NCBI GenBank assembly: GCA_000442125.1
Contig: KE546973.1
Location: 806,001 to 870,000, forward strand
DNA: 64,000 bases
Direction of reading: 5' to 3'
From: Opeltia flavorubescens
Taxonomy: Eukaryota > Ascomycota > Lecanoromycetes > Teloschistales > Teloschistaceae
The notes under the pieces are model-generated. The model searched no databases and was not told the DNA's origin. It worked only from the letters and a program-made list of their open reading frames with translations. The position numbers were made by a program, and so were the translations under genes. How positions within the stretch are numbered: position 1 is the first letter of the stretch; every line of letters begins with the position of its first letter. Positions 1,617 to 39,786 of the stretch are shown piece by piece.

Positions 1617-2022
1617 GAAACTTTTGACATTATCCCTGAGCGACTAATGGAGATTTAATCAGCTTTTTCCACATGTACCATATTCTCTGGCTCGGTTCTA
1701 AAATTTTTCATTCTGTTGTTATATACCTAAGGGCTCTGATGCGGCGAAGACCCATCCTGTCTTGGCAGAGCATTATGTTTGGCGTTGAAAGGATATTGTC
1801 GACATTCTCATAGATAGAACAATGAACAAATACTTCACTCCGCTAATTTCTCTTCAAGTCAACGATTGATTTGAGAATTTAAGATTTTACATCTCTAACC
1901 TTGGGCCGACAATCAACCAATTTTCCCGGCTCATTTTAAACACCTGTCCCTAGCTTTAGTCGTCTTACCCTGCTATGTGAACGATAAGTTCAGACATATA
2001 AGATATTAAAAAAACGGAAATC
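1617..2022. other. Intergenic, helicase 3' flank
   Basis: AT-rich 3' flank of the helicase gene running to the T-run terminator of the tRNA gene. No credible coding frame or RNA gene was seen. Confidence 0.6.
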
Positions 2023-2028
2023 AAAAAA
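2023..2028 (-). terminator. Pol III T-run terminator of tRNA-Glu
   Basis: Six A on the + strand (six T on the tRNA strand) lie 17 nt beyond the tRNA 3' end. This is the usual form of a RNA polymerase III terminator. Confidence 0.7.
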
Positions 2029-2045
2029 GGTAAATATATATCTTG

Positions 2046-2185
2046 TTCCGTTGCGGGGAATCGAACCCCGGCCATCCGCGGGCGCATTCTCTTCATGATG
2101 AGAGGCGGATATCCTAACCTAGGTGCTGTTAATAGACGGCTTCTAACAATGGAGAAATTGAGTCGTACCACTAGACCACAACGGA
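2046..2185 (-). tRNA. tRNA-Glu (anticodon CTC) with an anticodon-loop intron and a D-loop insert
   Basis: Read on the minus strand, a full tRNA-Glu folds once two insertions are set aside. Acceptor arms TCCGTTG (2185-2179) and CAACGGA (2053-2047) pair perfectly, with discriminator A at 2046. Anticodon CTC is at 2102-2100. A canonical intron of 18 nt (2098-2081) follows A37. A second insertion of 50 nt (2166-2117) interrupts the D-loop between GTGGT and TAGGAT. The A box (TGGTCTAGTGG) and B box (GGTTCGATTCC) are both intact, 72 + 18 + 50 = 140 nt accounts for every base, and TATA-like and T-run signals flank the gene. Fungal tRNA introns are normally found only after position 37, so the D-loop insert is either a non-canonical intron or an insertion that has killed this copy. 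Confidence 0.9.
2117..2166 (-). other. 50-nt D-loop insert in tRNA-Glu
   Basis: Extra sequence within the D-loop. The upstream exon has CTAGTGGT and the insert ends with CTAGGT, an imperfect direct repeat that could be a target-site duplication. CTAG is also self-complementary, so the two copies could pair as the central helix of a bulge-helix-bulge. No similarity to a known element is recognised. Confidence 0.7.
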
Positions 2186-2212: not shown

Positions 2213-2220
2213 ATATATAA
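2213..2220 (-). promoter_or_regulatory. TATA-like element upstream of tRNA-Glu
   Basis: A TATATA stretch sits 28-35 nt upstream of the tRNA 5' end on the minus strand, the place where fungal tRNA genes often carry a TFIIIB-aiding TATA-like box. Confidence 0.5.
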
Positions 2221-19936: not shown

Positions 19937-20740
19937 ATGGCCGGCGGAGCCCTGAAATACCGCCATCTTAGCCGCAAGTCCTCTCACCGACAAGCCCTCC
20001 TCCGCAACCTCGTTACCTCCCTCTTCACCCATGAATCCATAACCACAACTTGGCACAAGGCCAAAGAAGCCCAGCGTCTCGCCGAAAAACTCATCACCCT
20101 TGGTAAGAAAAACACAAACGCCAGTCGAAGACGGGCCGAAGCGATATTCTATGTATGTCAAAATCTCGCCTCTCTAGATCGACTTCCTCCAAGGAAATAT
20201 GTGCTGATGGAGGAGAAAACAGGAACCTCTCCAACACATCCCCCGTCTCTTCACTACCCTCCGCGACCGCTATCTCAACCGTCCGGGCGGCTACACCCGT
20301 GTCCTCCGCATCGAACCCATGAACAAACATTATGATCAAGCTCCTTCCGCTATCCTTGAACTGGTCGACGGACCCAAGGACATGCGGTTTCACATGACGG
20401 CGAAGACACTAGTCAGGGAAAGGGCAACGGATGAAGGTATCAGGGAGATCACGGCGAAGAACGTCAATAAGGTGACAAGATATCGGGAGGGAGGAGTGGA
20501 GGAGTTGGAGAGAGAGGTCAAGAGGATGGAGAAGCAGGTCAGGGATGAGGAATTCAGAGAGGTATGTCTTATCAACCCTTGAATGTTGAGCCTGCTGTTT
20601 GTGGTGGAACTTATGATCTATCTTAACGGTTCATAAACTAATGTCTATGGTGCAACTCGCAGAGAGCAAGATGGAAAGTTGACGAGGCACCGAGGGAAGG
20701 ACATGGAGAGAGGCAACCGTGGGTTAGGATGAAGAGTTAA
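19937..20740 (+). CDS. MRPL8: Mitochondrial large-subunit ribosomal protein bL17m, 210 aa
   Basis: Exons 19937-20152, 20223-20561 and 20663-20740; introns 70 and 101 nt. The bL17 core starts [25 protein letters not shown], close to bacterial L17 (LxRxxxHRxALLRNL), and continues with [17 protein letters not shown]. Intron 1 joins RRAEAIFY to [20 protein letters not shown], then [10 protein letters not shown] fungal-type C-terminal helix rich in Glu, Arg and Lys follows, and the last exon adds [10 protein letters not shown]. It belongs to the mitochondrial 54S subunit near the tunnel exit. Yeast MRPL8 is the counterpart; its number differs between fungi. Confidence 0.93.
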
Positions 20741-29014: not shown

Positions 29015-32000
29015 CTACAAAAACACACTATCATCCTCATCAACGAGGTCTCCCCGCATGCTCCGGCCCCGAGCAACAAGTCCATTGTCCACGCTGACCG
29101 GCCTTTTTCCCCGGCTTCCTCCCACCATAAACCTTCTCCCTCCGCTCTCACCGGCAGCGGCATCTTGCTGCCTCAATTGGGCCAATCTCTGCCACTGCCT
29201 TCCTGCCTCCGCTGTCGATCTTCCAGGCCCGCGGTCCTCATTCACATCCCTCCCTGCTGTTGCCGAAAAGGGTGAGCTTCCCTCCCGAGTCCCATCCACG
29301 GGTCTCCACCTCCGATTCCCTTCTTCGTCCCTCTCCTCCTCGAGTCCAAATTCGTCATCTTCAGCCGCAGAAGTAAACCGATGGTTCGAAACCATACTGC
29401 TCCTGCTGCTGTGGAAGCGGCTTGTGATGCCGCGCGATATTATGTCTGCGAGATCACGACGAGATGGGGGTCTAGATTTTTTGGGCGGGCTCGGACGTGA
29501 GGGGGTTCTAAGGGTGGAAGAAGGTGTATGTGACTCGATGGGCACTCGTTCAATATGGCTTGTGTATTGCTTGCCGGAGCTTGAAGGGAGGGAACTCATG
29601 GATTGTGTTGGTGAGATGATAGGCGAATGGGCTGAGTGGATCCGATTGGGATGCGACGACACACGGGATGAGGGACCAGCGGCGAAGAATGTATTCCGAT
29701 GGTGCCGGTTGCAAACTCGCTGTTTGTGGAATGCGTCTAATGGCGAACCGAAGGTGTATGGAGTCTCTGGCGGTACAGCCCGTATACTCGCTCTTTGCTC
29801 GTCTTCAAGCTCATGGATGGTCTGAGGCTGGGCTGTGTAATCTAACGTACCCGAAGTCGGCCGTAGAATGGCTCGTACATCCCAGCCCAAGGTTTGGGAT
29901 CTATCACTACGATTATATCCGTTGGTAGAAGAGAGATCAGAAGTCTTTGTCGTCGAGTCTGTGTATGCCCAGCTCCCATGGCTAGGGTTGCGCCACGATC
30001 TCCTCACAGGACCGGATCGTGGCAGTCCACCGATGCCGTGGCCTCTTCCTGGGATCAGATCCCAGCCAAAGTATGTTGCGCTGAGGCTAGAGTTATTGCG
30101 ACCGTGACCGAAGCCACTCAGCCGTCGGCTTGACAGAAGGCTCGTACTTGCAAAACTCATATCTGATCTGCGCTGCCTCTGTCTGCTTCGCTTCGTGGGC
30201 GAGGCGTGAAGGACGCCGGAAGGCTTACGAGACGGTTTTTTCCTCGACGAGAATCTGCTTCTGTCACCTATGGAGGACGCCTGCTCTTCAGGTACAAGTG
30301 AGAACTGCGGCTGTGCTGGTTTTACAGGCTTGTCCATGGGGAGTTGCTGCGTGTATTCGTGCCAGGAATCAGTCTCCGGCCCCTGAAAAACCCCCTCAGT
30401 CGTGCCCCTAGAATGCCGGAACCACGATCGCCGCTTGCTCGCTATTGAAGACCTGAAGCTTCGCAGGTCGAGGACTGGAGCCGTCGATGGGTGAACCATG
30501 TATGCTGTGCTGGGTTTTTCGATCATCTCCCCAACGGACTCTTGATCGCTAGCCTTTTCGGAGAAAAACGGGCGTGATATCTTCCTTTTCGATGTAGATA
30601 CCGATAACCAGGTCTTTTCTGGTTGTCTTCGTCTCCAACGTAAGAAACAGCATGCAAGGATCAGGAAGAGGCATACTACGACGGTTGGGACAGCGATGGC
30701 GACTGCTACACGAGTTCTGTGTTTGCGTGACTCTTTTTGTGCATCCTCGCTCTGACTAGCAACACTTGAAGTTGGAATCGAAGCTAATAAGCTTGTACTG
30801 GCGGCGGCAATCGGGGCCTCTGTTGATCGACTATTTGAGGAATGAGTCGCACTTTCCAGACTGATCGTCAGAAGTTCGGATTGACTCGTCGGTCCCTGAG
30901 AGAGGGTCACGTTGACGATGAGGTCCTGGGGCTGTAGATCGCTAGGAACGTGGCCAATGAGATCCAGGGTGCTCTGATCGAAGTTTAGCCAGGAAGAAGC
31001 AGTGCCGAGATCAACGAACATCGCTGGTTTTGGCGTAGTTTTACTTTGGTTGAAAGTATACTTGAAGTCTTCTCCGATGGTCGCATTTACAGTCCCCAAA
31101 GGTCCCATGAATAGAGTCGGTCTTTCTTCGTTAGTCGCTTGCAGAAGAACTGTGGTGGTAGCAGTCTCGCCGTAAATATCTGTGGCTGTGACTGTGATGT
31201 TTTGCAAAGTAGTCGAGTCCGGAGGGGTTCCTGATAACGTCCATGAATGCTCATCAAATGCAACCCAGTCGGGCTTATCAGCATGGATCTGTCGAATATC
31301 CGCACGATCGACCTTGACTCCATTCAAAGTCAGAGACGCCTGAAGTCCATCGTAGCTGAACGGCGCCGCTTGCGTGATGTTGACAATCTGAGGTTGGTTT
31401 TCAAACGCGAGGATGTGGCTCTCCAAAATTACTCGAAACGATGCGACTGCGGCCGAAAATCCCACGACATCTGAGGCGGTAAAATGTATATCAAAGGTCT
31501 GAGGCAGCTCGTCCGGCGATGTATTCTGAGGCGCTGTTCCGGAAAACGAGAGACTGTCTGGTTCGAAATGGATCCAGGAAGGCAAAGGGGTATTATTGGC
31601 ACAAAGAGCGTAGTATTTAGTATCATGGCTCGTACCAGTGAAAGTATCCGGCGAGAATGAAACGGACAGGGCACTTGAATGAGGTAAAAGGAGTGTATCT
31701 GGTGCTTGGAATCTGCTCTGCAGGGCAAGCTGCTCATCAATTGGCGTCCCAAGGCTTGGCCCTGGACTTGAAGACACAACCAACGTTACGGGCATTCTTG
31801 TCGAACCTGTATTATCCGTGGCGATAAGACCGAAATCGAAAGGGCCAACATTGTTGGGCCCTGGCGTACCAGAGAATGTCCGACTCGACGAGTCAAGCTG
31901 AAGCCATGCCGGCGCATCTGCTACAGTGTAATCGATGCTTCCCGCGCTTGAGAAGGTCGTATCAGCAAAAGCGAAGTAGAAGGGTCGAGACGTTCGCGCA

Positions 32001-32092
32001 ACCAGTGGGACTTGAGAGTTGACGGGGAGATCAACGGTCGGTGCGGCGACAATCTGGCATGGGAGAGCAAGCGATAGGATGAGCAGGGCCAT
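29015..32092 (-). CDS. AXL2: Axl2/Bud10-like cadherin-domain plasma-membrane protein, 1025 aa
   Basis: Single exon from ATG 32092. Residues 1-17 form a signal peptide (MALLILSLALPCQIVAA). At least three cadherin-like Ig folds follow, each ending in W..LD/FD..S..SGTP motifs (WLQLDSSSRTFSGTP, WIHFEPDSLSFSGTA, WVAFDEHSWTLSGTP). One membrane segment lies near residue 465 (VAVAIAVPTVVVCLFLI) with a following Arg/Lys stop-transfer. A cytoplasmic tail of about 540 Ser/Arg-rich residues ends the protein. Yeast Axl2 marks axial bud sites and binds septins; filamentous homologues affect septation and conidiation. ACTATAAAGC about 30 nt upstream of the start is TATA-like. Confidence 0.9.
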   Translation of the reverse strand: MALLILSLALPCQIVAAPTVDLPVNSQVPLVARTSRPFYFAFADTTFSSAGSIDYTVADAPAWLQLDSSSRTFSGTPGPNNVGPFDFGLIATDNTGSTRMPVTLVVSSSPGPSLGTPIDEQLALQSRFQAPDTLLLPHSSALSVSFSPDTFTGTSHDTKYYALCANNTPLPSWIHFEPDSLSFSGTAPQNTSPDELPQTFDIHFTASDVVGFSAAVASFRVILESHILAFENQPQIVNITQAAPFSYDGLQASLTLNGVKVDRADIRQIHADKPDWVAFDEHSWTLSGTPPDSTTLQNITVTATDIYGETATTTVLLQATNEERPTLFMGPLGTVNATIGEDFKYTFNQSKTTPKPAMFVDLGTASSWLNFDQSTLDLIGHVPSDLQPQDLIVNVTLSQGPTSQSELLTISLESATHSSNSRSTEAPIAAASTSLLASIPTSSVASQSEDAQKESRKHRTRVAVAIAVPTVVVCLFLILACCFLRWRRRQPEKTWLSVSTSKRKISRPFFSEKASDQESVGEMIEKPSTAYMVHPSTAPVLDLRSFRSSIASKRRSWFRHSRGTTEGVFQGPETDSWHEYTQQLPMDKPVKPAQPQFSLVPEEQASSIGDRSRFSSRKKPSRKPSGVLHASPTKRSRQRQRRSDMSFASTSLLSSRRLSGFGHGRNNSSLSATYFGWDLIPGRGHGIGGLPRSGPVRRSWRNPSHGSWAYTDSTTKTSDLSSTNGYNRSDRSQTLGWDVRAILRPTSGTLDYTAQPQTIHELEDEQRASIRAVPPETPYTFGSPLDAFHKQRVCNRHHRNTFFAAGPSSRVSSHPNRIHSAHSPIISPTQSMSSLPSSSGKQYTSHIERVPIESHTPSSTLRTPSRPSPPKKSRPPSRRDLADIISRGITSRFHSSRSSMVSNHRFTSAAEDDEFGLEEERDEEGNRRWRPVDGTREGSSPFSATAGRDVNEDRGPGRSTAEAGRQWQRLAQLRQQDAAAGESGGRRFMVGGSRGKRPVSVDNGLVARGRSMRGDLVDEDDSVFL

Positions 32093-32401
32093 TCCCTGAT
32101 ACTCGATCTTGTTTCTTTTCGCTTTATAGTGTTGTACAACTTCAACGAGACCTCACAAGACAAGAGCACTTCATTGTTCCTGAAAATCCGCCATGAAATC
32201 CACCCCAGAAACTTTAAGAGAGCGATTGATAGAGAGAAACAGAGAGGTCGAGCCCGACATCCTCCATGTCCAACTCCCAGCCTTCAAAAGCACGCACGCG
32301 CTCATCATTCCAGAAAGGGACGCGTCTTAGGATGTAAGCTCTTTGCGAACAAGTGCTGCAAGGAGTCAAATCGCCACAAGTACATTCCTCGAAAGAAGCG
32401 A
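32093..32401. other. Intergenic
   Basis: 309 bp holding the Axl2-like promoter (TATAAA on the minus strand within 32121-32130) and the GNAT-gene 3' flank. Confidence 0.5.
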
Positions 32402-34140: not shown

Positions 34141-37071
34141 CTAATCACTTCCTCCCAGTCCAGCGCTCAAAGCCAGGTACCAAGTCAACGTAGCTCCACC
34201 ATCCAGATACTGCGGATCAAAATTCGGCCCGCTGAACCAGTCATATGCCGCTTTAGGATCAATCAAGGCCAGGTTGCTATACAGGATTCCACGCCAACCA
34301 CCCTCTACCTTATCAACGCGTCCATTGTCGAAATACGTCGCCCATTCTTCATTGATGAAGTTTTGGTTGCGTATATAGCCAGAGGAGGGATTGATAGGGA
34401 TCATATGGATTCCTTCAATGTACTCGGGGTTGGCGCCGAAATAGGTCCTGGATGCAACCATTAGCTTCTCCTGGAGGAAGAACATCAACAAAATGAAACT
34501 CTTACACATGATCACACTTGTTCTCGAAAAGAATACCAGTGACTTTGTTCCCAATGAAATTCGCTGGCTGGTTAACATTTGCTTTCTCCATCAAAAAGTA
34601 ATTTTGGAATGCTCTCTTCTGCACCGCAAGCATGAGATTCCCTCTCGCTTCCATGGCGGTGTCGCCGATAGTGCGCCCCCACATCTTCATGGCGTAAGAG
34701 AAGAGTGCATCCTCGGATGTGGACTCTTGATCTTTGCCATCGCCGCTGTCGAAAAGGCCTTTGGCCCAGGAGTGTCCGTGATACCAGTCGAATGAGCGGG
34801 AAACAGGGAAGTAAGGATCATCTGCGGAAGGATTGGCGGCGTCGCGGATGAGGGTGTTGACCCATTCTGCTGTCGTCAGAGGTGGTTCTATAGCATATGC
34901 ATTGTGGCATATTCAAATGGACAAATTTTGGGCTAAGGTAATAGAGAGGAAGGATCTTACCTCGGTTGGCAGGTATCCAAGTTGGATCGAGGTAACCGAT
35001 GAGTGCGGCAGCGTGGATGAAGTAGCTCCAATGAAAATGGTGGTCATTGTAATATGTGTTCCCAAAATCAACGCCTGAATCACCAGTCACATATGATGCT
35101 GTCGAGACAACTCCACCCCATGCAGATTCATATACCAGCGGGAATTGTTGCTTGTTGCTCGCAAACCTTGCAAATGCCTCCTTTAGCTTGTCAAGTCCAG
35201 CTTGCGCAAGGTCCGTGTCGCCAGCAAGATCATGGACGGCGTAGATAGCCGATGCGAATTTGCTCAACGCTTTACCGCTATAGTACATGCTGTTCAAATT
35301 GGACTGAGCATCCATATCTTGCGACAGGTCGCTCGTTCCAGCAGCAATGATCTTCTGCTGAGCGGCAGCGGAGATTGGCTGAGATGAGCCAGACGGGGCT
35401 TTCCATGGGGCGAATCCAACAGATGTAGGGAGGTCAGGTTCGATCATTGTCCAAGAATCTCCACTCACTCCTGTTGCCAGACCCTTTACCGTGGTTTGAA
35501 GTTGGATCGTAGTCTTTCCTGCACTGGTTGTGGCGGACATGGACTCAATATGATGGGGCAGAGCGAACATCAGTAGGGGAGCACCGTTACCGCCTTTGGC
35601 CCAAGATAAGGTGTACGATCCGACGCTGTCATCAACAGAAGCGGAGAGTGAAACAGTGGTTGGAAACGCTCCTGCAGCAGCGTCGTACGATTCCTCTTGA
35701 GAAGCGACATCGCCAGGATTCTTGGCGATCTGGATCGTTCCCTCGAATGGACTAGCTGCCTGTAATCTAGTATTGCTTGCTGCAGTGAGGGTGAGACCTT
35801 TCCCGTCATTAGCTGTCGCATACAGAAGCCAGGTGTTGCCATCTTCCAGAAGAATCTTGTACTTGGTGACTCCAGATTTGGGAGAAGGAAGCGGAGTCAC
35901 TGTTCGAAAGAAAATGCTGCTGTCAATGAACGGTGTGACGGAACGGTAGGCTGCGGTGACAAAGCCCATGCCTTGCACAAGAGGAAACGTGATAGCCGGA
36001 GATGATGCACCCATTGGGATCAGATTAGCATTCACGGAGAATGCGGTCAGGGAGTCGGTTGCTAAAGTCATGCCACTAGTGCTCATTAGCCCACTCGTGA
36101 AGCATCATAGGAACAGGTTACAGACGGGCCAAGTTCAGCAGCAGAAAAGATTATAGACTGAATGCCAATAGGATTGACATAGTACTCCACTGGATTATCA
36201 GTAGCGCTCGGACCAAAGACCTGTCCACGGTCAGTACAGTGAGCGGACCAATGATATAGAATCTCACCCTTTGGTCTGCTTCAATGTGCGAAACACTCAT
36301 GCCCCATGTCTTAGCGTTGCCAGATCCTTGACTCCATTGCAACGAGTATGGCTGGGTCCACACGGAATTGGTTTGATTTCCAAGGAAGAAGTTTGCGTAG
36401 AATTTATTTGTCGACTTCGGCGCTGTTTGCCCCGACTACGGCGGTCATTAATGCTTAAATTCCCGAAATTTTATGACGAAGAGCTATCTTACAATGCCCT
36501 CTCTTGGGGCGGGATGATCGGATCTCGAGCCTATGTCTGAAGCAGGCACTCCAGTACTAATCGGCTCCCTAAAGATGTCGGATGATGCAGCGCTGGAGGA
36601 GGCTTGAGCCACAAGGACAACAGGTGTTGCCTTCGTAACGGCAAGAGTTGACGTGGGTCTTGGAATCGGCTTGGTGGCGAAAGGTAAAGCGCTTGTTCGT
36701 CCACTAGTTTCAAGTGATGTTTGCACACTCTGGGAGTTGAATAAGATCAGTATACAGCCATCTCAAGTAAAAACTCGCTTGCTCTGTTGTGCTATCTTTA
36801 TGTGCTCAGACCAGATCAAAAGGGTGTAAGAAGCGAAGTCATTGTCACAAGGACGGGGAGAGAATATTGAGAAACGATATTCGGATTTTGGTGGGCAATT
36901 GGGACAATCGCTTACTCCAGTGACTTTGCTAGTAATAGCTTGAAAAGAGAAGGATTGCGGTCCAGCCGTAGGTATCTCAATTGGCGAAGCTGCCAGGCCA
37001 GTAATAGAGGCAGGTATTGCATAAGCCGACCGAGAGAGTAAGAAAAATACAAGAAAGCCGAAAGGCTGCAT
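34141..37071 (-). CDS. ENG1: Secreted GH81 endo-1,3-beta-glucanase, 821 aa
   Basis: Seven exons: 37071-36916, 36729-36493, 36435-36268, 36220-36126, 36081-34961, 34887-34506 and 34447-34141. Introns are 186, 57, 47, 44, 73 and 58 nt; frames close. Signal peptide MQPFGFLVFFLLSRSAYA. A Ser/Thr/Pro-rich linker (about 53-130) precedes the GH81 domain: STNKFYANFFLGNQTNSVWT, WTQPYSLQW, NPIGIQSIIFS, GMGFVTA, then YYNDHHFHWSYFIHAAA with the catalytic Asp region, SFDWYHGHSWAKGL, DQESTSEDALFSYA with conserved Glu residues, and FENKCDHVTYFG, IEGIHMIP. These enzymes cut 1,3-beta-glucan of the wall, for cell separation or autolysis. The exon 4/5 donor (GTCTGT) is weaker than others. TATA-like AGTATATC lies about 105 nt upstream. 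Confidence 0.92.
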
Positions 37072-38200: not shown

Positions 38201-39786
38201 ATGCCAAGCATGACCGTTGAGGATGTTGGCCATGGCAAGGATCTCGATCATCAAGCGCCGCCAAGACTCGGTACCGACAAGGCCAGTGGAAAAGAGCTCG
38301 ATCAACTTACACCACTTCAGAATTCGATAAGGTCATCTTTGGAGGACAATGGATCCATATACTCAGCGGACAACGAGAATGAGAGATCAAGGGGTCTCCT
38401 ACTCCCTCCAGCCGGTCGTCGATATCGCTCTATATCGCCTGCACCTCTGCAATCTTGGAGAGCGAAGTGCAGTTCATTATGGATCGCCAACAAAGGGCTG
38501 GTGCTCGTTCTCATTGCCCAGCTCTTTGGGGCCTTGATGAATGTAACGACCAGATTGCTGGAAACTTCGGGTGAACCGTTGAACACTTTTCAGGTACGTC
38601 GAGGCTAAGTTGATTACTCCTATGCTGCGAGGACGCTGACGACCCCGATAGGTCATGTTTGCTCGGATGGGCATCACTTTGGTTATGGGTACCGCGTACA
38701 TGTGGTGGGCCAATGTCGATCATTTTCCCTTTGGCCCGAAAGGAGTCCGGAAGCTGCTCATGGCAAGAGGGTTTGGAGGCTTCTTTGGTCGTAAGCATTT
38801 TACGATAGCCGCCTGCTCCTTCAATTTCAGCTGACATCTGTGGTTGCAGTATTCGGTATATACTGTATGCTTCTTCTCATTACGACTCCCCATATTGAAG
38901 CTCATCGATTCGTATAGATTCTCTTCAATACCTTCCACTCGCCGATGCTACTGTGATCACCTTCTTAGCACCTATCGTAACATGCTGGGCGTGCTCAATT
39001 CTGATACACGAGGCGTTTACTAGGGCTGAACAAATAGCCGGCCTTGTCTCACTTGTCGGTGTCGTCTTAATCGCTCGACCAACATCATTCTTTTCCTCGA
39101 CAGCTGGAGACTCTTCCGTCGCTAGCGGAGCAGCCGATGTCATGCCGGTTACGAATATGACATACTCGGCACAATTGGAGTATGGAAATGTCGCGACGTC
39201 AACTCAACGGCTTATTGCTGTTGGCGTTGCACTGGTAGGAGTCTTCGGAGCTGCTTCAGCCTACACAACCATTCGCTGGATTGGCCAAAGAGCCCATCCG
39301 CTGATCTCAGTCAACTACTTTGCGGCATGGGTGACGCTTGTTGCTACATTAGTACTGCTATTCATCCCGGGCATGCACTTCAAGCTGCCCTCTGGCGCCA
39401 AACAATGGAGTTACCTAGTCTTTCTGGGTGTGTGTGGCTTTGTCATGCAGCTTCTGCTTACAACCGGTCTAGCATACGAGAAAAGCTCTCGAGCGACTAA
39501 TATGGTCTATACTCAAATGCTCTTCGCCTTGGCTTTTGACAAAGTTGTCTTCGATACTACACCGGGTATACTTAGTATCTTGGGTAGTAGCCTTATCCTA
39601 GGTAGTGCACTATACATCGCTGTGCGGCAAGACACTTCGAAACGAGCTGAGCAGAATCAAAGAAGAAATGGAGACGAGGAAGATGGTCTTATGGGCAACA
39701 ACGATGTAATCGAGACCGCCACTAGTGACGAAAGAGGGCCAATGAGAGGAGTGCAAGAAGTCCAGCTCCGGACACTCAGAATATGA
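38201..39786 (+). CDS. EamA/DMT-family membrane transporter, 471 aa
   Basis: Exons 38201-38593, 38652-38790, 38850-38864 (15 nt) and 38918-39786; introns 58, 59 and 53 nt. A 105-residue Ser/Asp-rich cytoplasmic N-terminus precedes about ten membrane helices. The first EamA repeat has GLVLVLIAQLFGALMNVTTRLL, NTFQVMFARMGITL, and FFGLFGIYYSLQYLPLADAT joined across two introns; it ends GLVSLVGVVLIARP. The second repeat includes ISVNYFAAWVTLVA and ends ILGSSLILGSALYIA. Such drug/metabolite transporters move small organic molecules across plasma or internal membranes; the substrate is unknown. Two nearby ATGs (38201 and 38210) could both serve. Confidence 0.87.
38850..38864 (+). other. 15-nt micro-exon of the EamA gene
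   Basis: Flanked by TTGCAG and GTATGC. It supplies part of the LFGIY segment in a membrane helix; without it the frame (15 nt) stays open but five residues are lost from the helix. Confidence 0.6.

Follow-up and report, generated by a model that had tools for sequence, protein, structure and literature searches.

A tRNA-Glu(CTC) gene on the minus strand of the window analysed here, a 64,000-nucleotide (nt) stretch of the Opeltia flavorubescens genome (contig KE546973.1 of assembly GCA_000442125.1, positions 806,001 to 870,000), is interrupted in its D-loop by an insert of 50 nt, and on balance we lean towards reading this locus as a fungal gene copy that suffered a recent disruption. The gene runs from 2185 to 2046, and its 140 nt are made up of 72 nt of tRNA, an 18-nt intron in the anticodon loop and the 50-nt insert. 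The insert, a 3-nt direct repeat of GGT at its junctions and an intact remainder are directly visible. Given a genuine insert in an otherwise untouched gene, the insertion must be recent or the gene must still be working. According to the reading that we prefer, a stretch of about 47 nt would have entered the D-loop with, or next to, the direct repeat. The promoter boxes, a terminator-like run and the stems are intact and the gene may therefore still be transcribed, giving a precursor that would retain the insert and fail to mature or be degraded. This reading presumes a recent insertion that is not removed from the RNA, as well as intact copies of the tRNA gene elsewhere in the genome. A dead copy of this kind requires nothing new.

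The identity of the gene emerges when the insert is taken out. At default settings ARAGORN reported no tRNA in the 64-kb window, and when introns were permitted it made a spurious call at c[2045,2185], a tRNA-Met(CAT) whose intron would measure 53 nt. Removal of the 50-nt stretch led the same program, with introns allowed, to a tRNA-Glu(CTC) that has 72 bases and is split at 37-38 by an 18-nt intron, and with introns disallowed to a tRNA-Asp(ATC). These results and the arithmetic of the 140 nt bear out two proposals of an earlier sequence-only reading of this DNA, namely that a 72-nt tRNA-Glu is present in a form with two inserts and that the 18-nt insert after A37 is an ordinary intron. Equally sound was its description of the A box, B box, stems, TATA-like site and T run as intact: in the ARAGORN drawing all pairs are formed in the acceptor stem (7/7), the anticodon stem (5/5) and the T-stem (5/5), both boxes are complete, and a TATATA motif and a run of six T flank the gene. 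The cloverleaf, the CTC anticodon, the intron at 37/38, the boxes and the terminator-like run together place the locus among nuclear tRNA-Glu(CTC) genes with an anticodon-loop intron. No run of four T was found inside the gene, and the starts of the A and B boxes lie 111 nt apart. A constrained fold allows pairing between GAGA, in the 18-nt intron, and TCTC, in the anticodon loop. The cloverleaf was not the minimum-energy fold with the inserts in or out, and since it was absent even from the minimum-energy fold of the bare 72 letters, folding energies are uninformative here. Rfam gave no match in the window at gathering scores; a permissive search produced a partial tRNA match at 2054-2124 of 17.3 bits (E 1.3), against a cut-off of 29 bits. 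With a lowered ARAGORN threshold the window gave 13 tRNAs when introns were disallowed and 96 when they were allowed; we regarded these calls as noise.

The junctions of the insert can be read in four equivalent ways, because GGT stands at both of them and leaves the ends ambiguous by 3 nt. Thus, of the earlier proposal of a 50-nt insert at 2117-2166, the insert and its place in the D-loop stand, while its ends cannot be fixed. One of the four readings opens with GTACGA and closes with CCTAG, so that the insert has the GT...AG borders of an mRNA-type intron and the exons meet between G18 and G19. The earlier reading was silent both on the junction ambiguity and on this GT...AG alternative with its branch-like TTAAC. 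An ambiguity of 3 nt is exactly what arises from a GT..AG intron lying between G and GT, and it is equally what arises from a 3-bp target repeat. At minus-strand positions 2111-2122, the 3' end of the insert together with exon 2 reads CTAGGTTAGGAT, which resembles CTAGTGGTTAGGAT of the insert-free tRNA, and the GGT repeat may accordingly be a longer repeat that has lost two bases.

We found no second copy of the insert in the window among the matches listed, the nearest other matches there being 10 exact bases, or 14 with one mismatch. Stretches shared with 13 introns of the window amounted to at most 12 bases. The core of the insert had no match in viral, bacterial or archaeal contig collections, nor were there matches in the viral contigs to patterns for tRNA-Glu, one uninterrupted and one gapped, or in the bacterial and archaeal contigs to a tRNA pattern; these negatives say little about fungi.

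To score the GT...AG reading we used donor, acceptor and branch-site matrices trained on introns of the window's own genes, and as the control we put random window segments, flanked by the GGT repeat in the same way, at the position of the insert; the starting splice-site strings were entered by hand. A home-made gene finder gave 14 and 25 introns in two stricter runs. The machine-called set consisted of the 25 introns less four longer than 130 nt, leaving 21 that were scored. A set of 13 was picked by eye from both runs for good-looking signals and therefore leans to strong sites; on reading the joined proteins two of its members are doubtful (34888-34960, at the acceptor, and 38791-38917). 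A set of eight, of 47-111 nt, was picked by eye for protein continuity and then checked. Four of its junctions fall within one unbroken Pfam match (two in GH81, two in the eIF3f-like gene), the VTC match was below cut-off (21.2 against 23 bits), no Pfam match was obtained for the EamA fragment, and the junctions in the L17 and JmjC genes were placed by eye alone, with a protein match supporting the first exon of L17. The mitochondrial L17-like gene offers a local example of splice signals, a 70-nt intron at 20153-20222 (GTATGT..GCTGAT..CAG) positioned by protein on both sides.

The strength of the signal depended on the intron set. Trained on the 21 machine-called introns, the matrices gave the insert 5.9, below all 21 (lowest intron 6.4), and 13114 of 200000 random inserts scored as well. 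With the 13 eye-picked introns the insert scored 10.2 within a range of 7.75 to 13.2, above one of the 13; as good a score was reached by 762 of 100000 random inserts (734/100000 in a second draw) and by 1.8% of the 445 GT..AG pairs of 50 nt across the window. The eight introns chosen for protein continuity ranged from 9.06 to 11.73 and all scored above the insert (8.1; 2858/100000 random inserts as good). Matrices built solely on the fungal consensus placed the insert above 9/13 of the window introns, and 321 of 100000 random inserts did as well. Among random inserts that carry the GGT repeat, about 25% have GT..AG borders, because the repeat supplies three of the four bases. The insert has the GT...AG borders of a U2-type intron and its removal there restores the host RNA, which is weak evidence by itself. 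CTRAY is the fungal branch-site consensus, and no CTRAY occurs in the insert, near its 3' end or elsewhere; its best candidate is TTAAC, whereas the best branch candidates of all eight introns in the protein-continuity set are CTRAY. Within the putative transcript, the tRNA-restoring pair was the top scorer of 37 GT..AG pairs of 40-130 nt, although the runner-up, which shares its donor and uses an AG 5 nt further on, came close (9.92 against 10.23). Overall, support for the insert as a short spliceosomal intron is moderate.

We weighed the disrupted copy against a short mRNA-type intron in a gene transcribed by RNA polymerase (Pol) III. When an insert sits in the D- or T-arm of a eukaryotic tRNA gene, the affected gene is mostly just one among many synonymous copies and is presumed to be a pseudogene (PMC4090602), and according to the paper on tRNAscan-SE 2.0 a eukaryotic tRNA gene has no more than one intron (PMC8450103). 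Our locus is like those disrupted copies in having one such insert in a recognizable tRNA gene (PMC4090602). The weak branch site, the scores below both the eight and the 21 introns and the lack, in each of the four readings, of a bulge–helix–bulge (BHB) with both flanking helices also favour a disrupted copy. Several observations weigh on the other side. Unlike the known disrupted copies, this gene has no other visible decay, with the stems, both boxes, anticodon intron, TATA-like site and T run all intact. Chance seldom produces an insert of usual length that has exact GT..AG ends and whose donor and acceptor are both fair, and the consensus-only score exceeds that of most of the 13 window introns. 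With the repeat in place, 0.3 to 6.6% of random inserts scored as well, according to the intron set; without the target repeat this fell to about 9 in 100000 (300000 draws, 13-intron training) or 90/400000 (8-intron training). A spliceosome that joined G18 to G19, with the tRNA endonuclease removing the 18-nt intron, would account at once for the insert's ends, for its length and for the intactness of the exons, and G|GT..AG|GT by itself yields the 3-nt ambiguity. The CTAG end, a length within that of the eight window introns, a GTACG donor shared with 2/13 window introns and a branch-like site 10 nt upstream of the insert end are consistent with this account, and in one survey direct repeats lay at or near the borders of all introns examined (PMC11782384). 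There are also precedents in two other fungal structural RNAs. The U6 snRNA (small nuclear RNA) of fission yeast, likewise the product of a fungal Pol III gene, carries an mRNA-type intron, which lies near the U6 catalytic bases and is spliced in vivo (PMC10484740), whereas the putative intron here lies in a tRNA gene. Lichen fungi have spliceosomal introns in nuclear ribosomal DNA (rDNA), and one as short as 57 bp (C. grayi) is removed from Pol I transcripts by yeast (PMC8527467); removal is demonstrated there, whereas the putative intron here has a weak branch site. Reverse splicing may have brought such an intron in, or it may have come as an introner-like element, a class that creates new introns in Dothideomycetes (PMC4457414). 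Counting against it, the reading is post hoc, having been reached after several splicing types were tried, and the insert shares little sequence with the 13 window introns. A literature search, in which most subscription journals were not covered, found no paper describing a tRNA gene with a spliceosomal intron among the matches listed. We consider a short mRNA-type intron rather unlikely, and a working one, in which a Pol III precursor would need the spliceosome at the D-loop and the tRNA splicing endonuclease at the anticodon loop to make tRNA-Glu, a shade less likely again.

The other explanations fare worse. A non-canonical intron of the sort described in archaea and a red alga, where the tRNA splicing endonuclease recognizes BHB-like sites, seems very unlikely to us, even though the insert lies close to the 20/21 site used by some archaea (PMC4090602) and a single reading of the four allows a loose 4-bp CTAG:CTAG helix next to the two junctions. 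By our home-made definition no reading had a BHB at the two junctions with a central helix and flanking helices of at least two pairs on both sides, while among 5000 shuffled inserts the loose form appeared in 72% and the strict form in 15%, and with the cloverleaf enforced in constrained folds the two junctions lay in separate hairpins. The tRNA introns of a red alga and nucleomorphs likewise occupy non-canonical places such as the D arm, sometimes beside another intron, but such eukaryotic introns are considered rare, with nucleomorphs and Cyanidioschyzon named; BHB motifs seem critical in C. merolae, in contrast to an insert that has none with both flanks, and those of Guillardia theta measure 3-24 nt against 50 nt here (PMC4090602). 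None of these hosts is a fungus. The sequence-only reading had offered a D-loop intron or a disrupted copy: the disrupted copy is favoured, and an intron, if there is one, is likelier to be spliceosomal than of the endonuclease type because no BHB with both flanking helices was found in the four readings. Slightly more doubtful still is a small transposable or introner-like element that brought a 3-bp target repeat and is not spliced from the tRNA gene. The GGT repeat suits it, as would a longer imperfect repeat, perhaps CTAGTGGT and CTAG--GT (989 of 100000 random inserts end in CTA), yet the two ends of the insert, compared as inverted repeats, agree at no more than 2 of 12 positions, the listed matches include no second copy in the 64 kb, and ascomycete introner families are reported to lack terminal inverted repeats and target-site duplications (PMC9860276). 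An assembly or sequencing artefact is highly improbable; the locus is represented by a single sequence, but the junctions are clean with a 3-nt repeat and the flanks are complete. The least credible candidate of all is a small or degenerate group I intron similar to those of Phialophora rDNA, very small fungal rDNA introns of 56-81 nt that end in U (PMC3160393). The size is similar, and the 2117-2166 reading has a T before the 5' junction and a T at its end, resembling the U end of those introns. However, a T before the 5' junction together with the classic G at the end was found in none of the four readings (U and U in one), and in a constrained fold the base opposite the T at the 5' junction is another T, which leaves the cut with no U-G pair. 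None of the three Rfam matches at E values up to 5 over 1700-2500 belonged to a group I family and no conserved core was thus recognized, although so small a form might escape such a search.

Table. Coordinates of the interrupted tRNA-Glu(CTC) gene, its inserts and its expression signals within the 64-kb window.
Feature	Position	Strand	Remarks
tRNA-Glu(CTC) exon 1, positions 1-18	2169..2185	minus	GT-AG reading
50-nt D-loop insert, GT...AG reading	2119..2168	minus	equivalents 2117-2166, 2118-2167, 2120-2169
TTAAC, sole YTNAY branch-like site of the insert	2128..2132	minus	branch A (second A) 10 nt before insert end
tRNA exon 2, G19 to A37	2099..2118	minus	GT-AG reading
Ordinary anticodon-loop intron, 18 nt, at 37/38	2081..2098	minus	ARAGORN
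tRNA exon 3, position 38 to discriminator base	2046..2080	minus	
A box TGGTCTAGTGG, complete	2168..2178	minus	
B box GGTTCGATTCC, complete	2057..2067	minus	
TATATA at -34	2214..2219	minus	
T6 run at +18, Pol III terminator-like	2023..2028	minus	
Second T run, T7 at +32	2008..2014	minus	

The surroundings of the gene are those of a fungal nuclear genome. The window has a G+C content of 49%, and its genes include Mpp10, Utp25, VTC, GH81, UbiA-family, JAB/eIF3f-like and PPR genes. The best match of the L17 reading frame was the uL17m chain of the 6ywe mitoribosome entry, which we take to be that of Neurospora crassa. A DEAD-box helicase reading frame (138-1616) contains in its 3' part an array of an 18-bp unit (1284-1398, about six copies, 71-74% matches). 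This helicase gene is the neighbour of the tRNA gene on one side, and a gene model starting at 2872 is its neighbour on the other. A long reading frame on the minus strand (29015-32152) has three He_PIG (Ig-like) stretches and a Psg1 match below cut-off, and is reminiscent of Axl2-type surface proteins.

Here we have described a tRNA-Glu(CTC) gene with two inserts, whose D-loop insert we favour as the mark of a recent disruption. Should the gene be dead, it would be one more ordinary broken copy of the type overlooked or misnamed by tRNA finders. If the insert is spliced, two unrelated splicing machines would act on one tRNA precursor. Spliceosomal introns would then be able to settle in tRNA genes, which would bear on how introns spread and on the tie between the spliceosome and Pol II.
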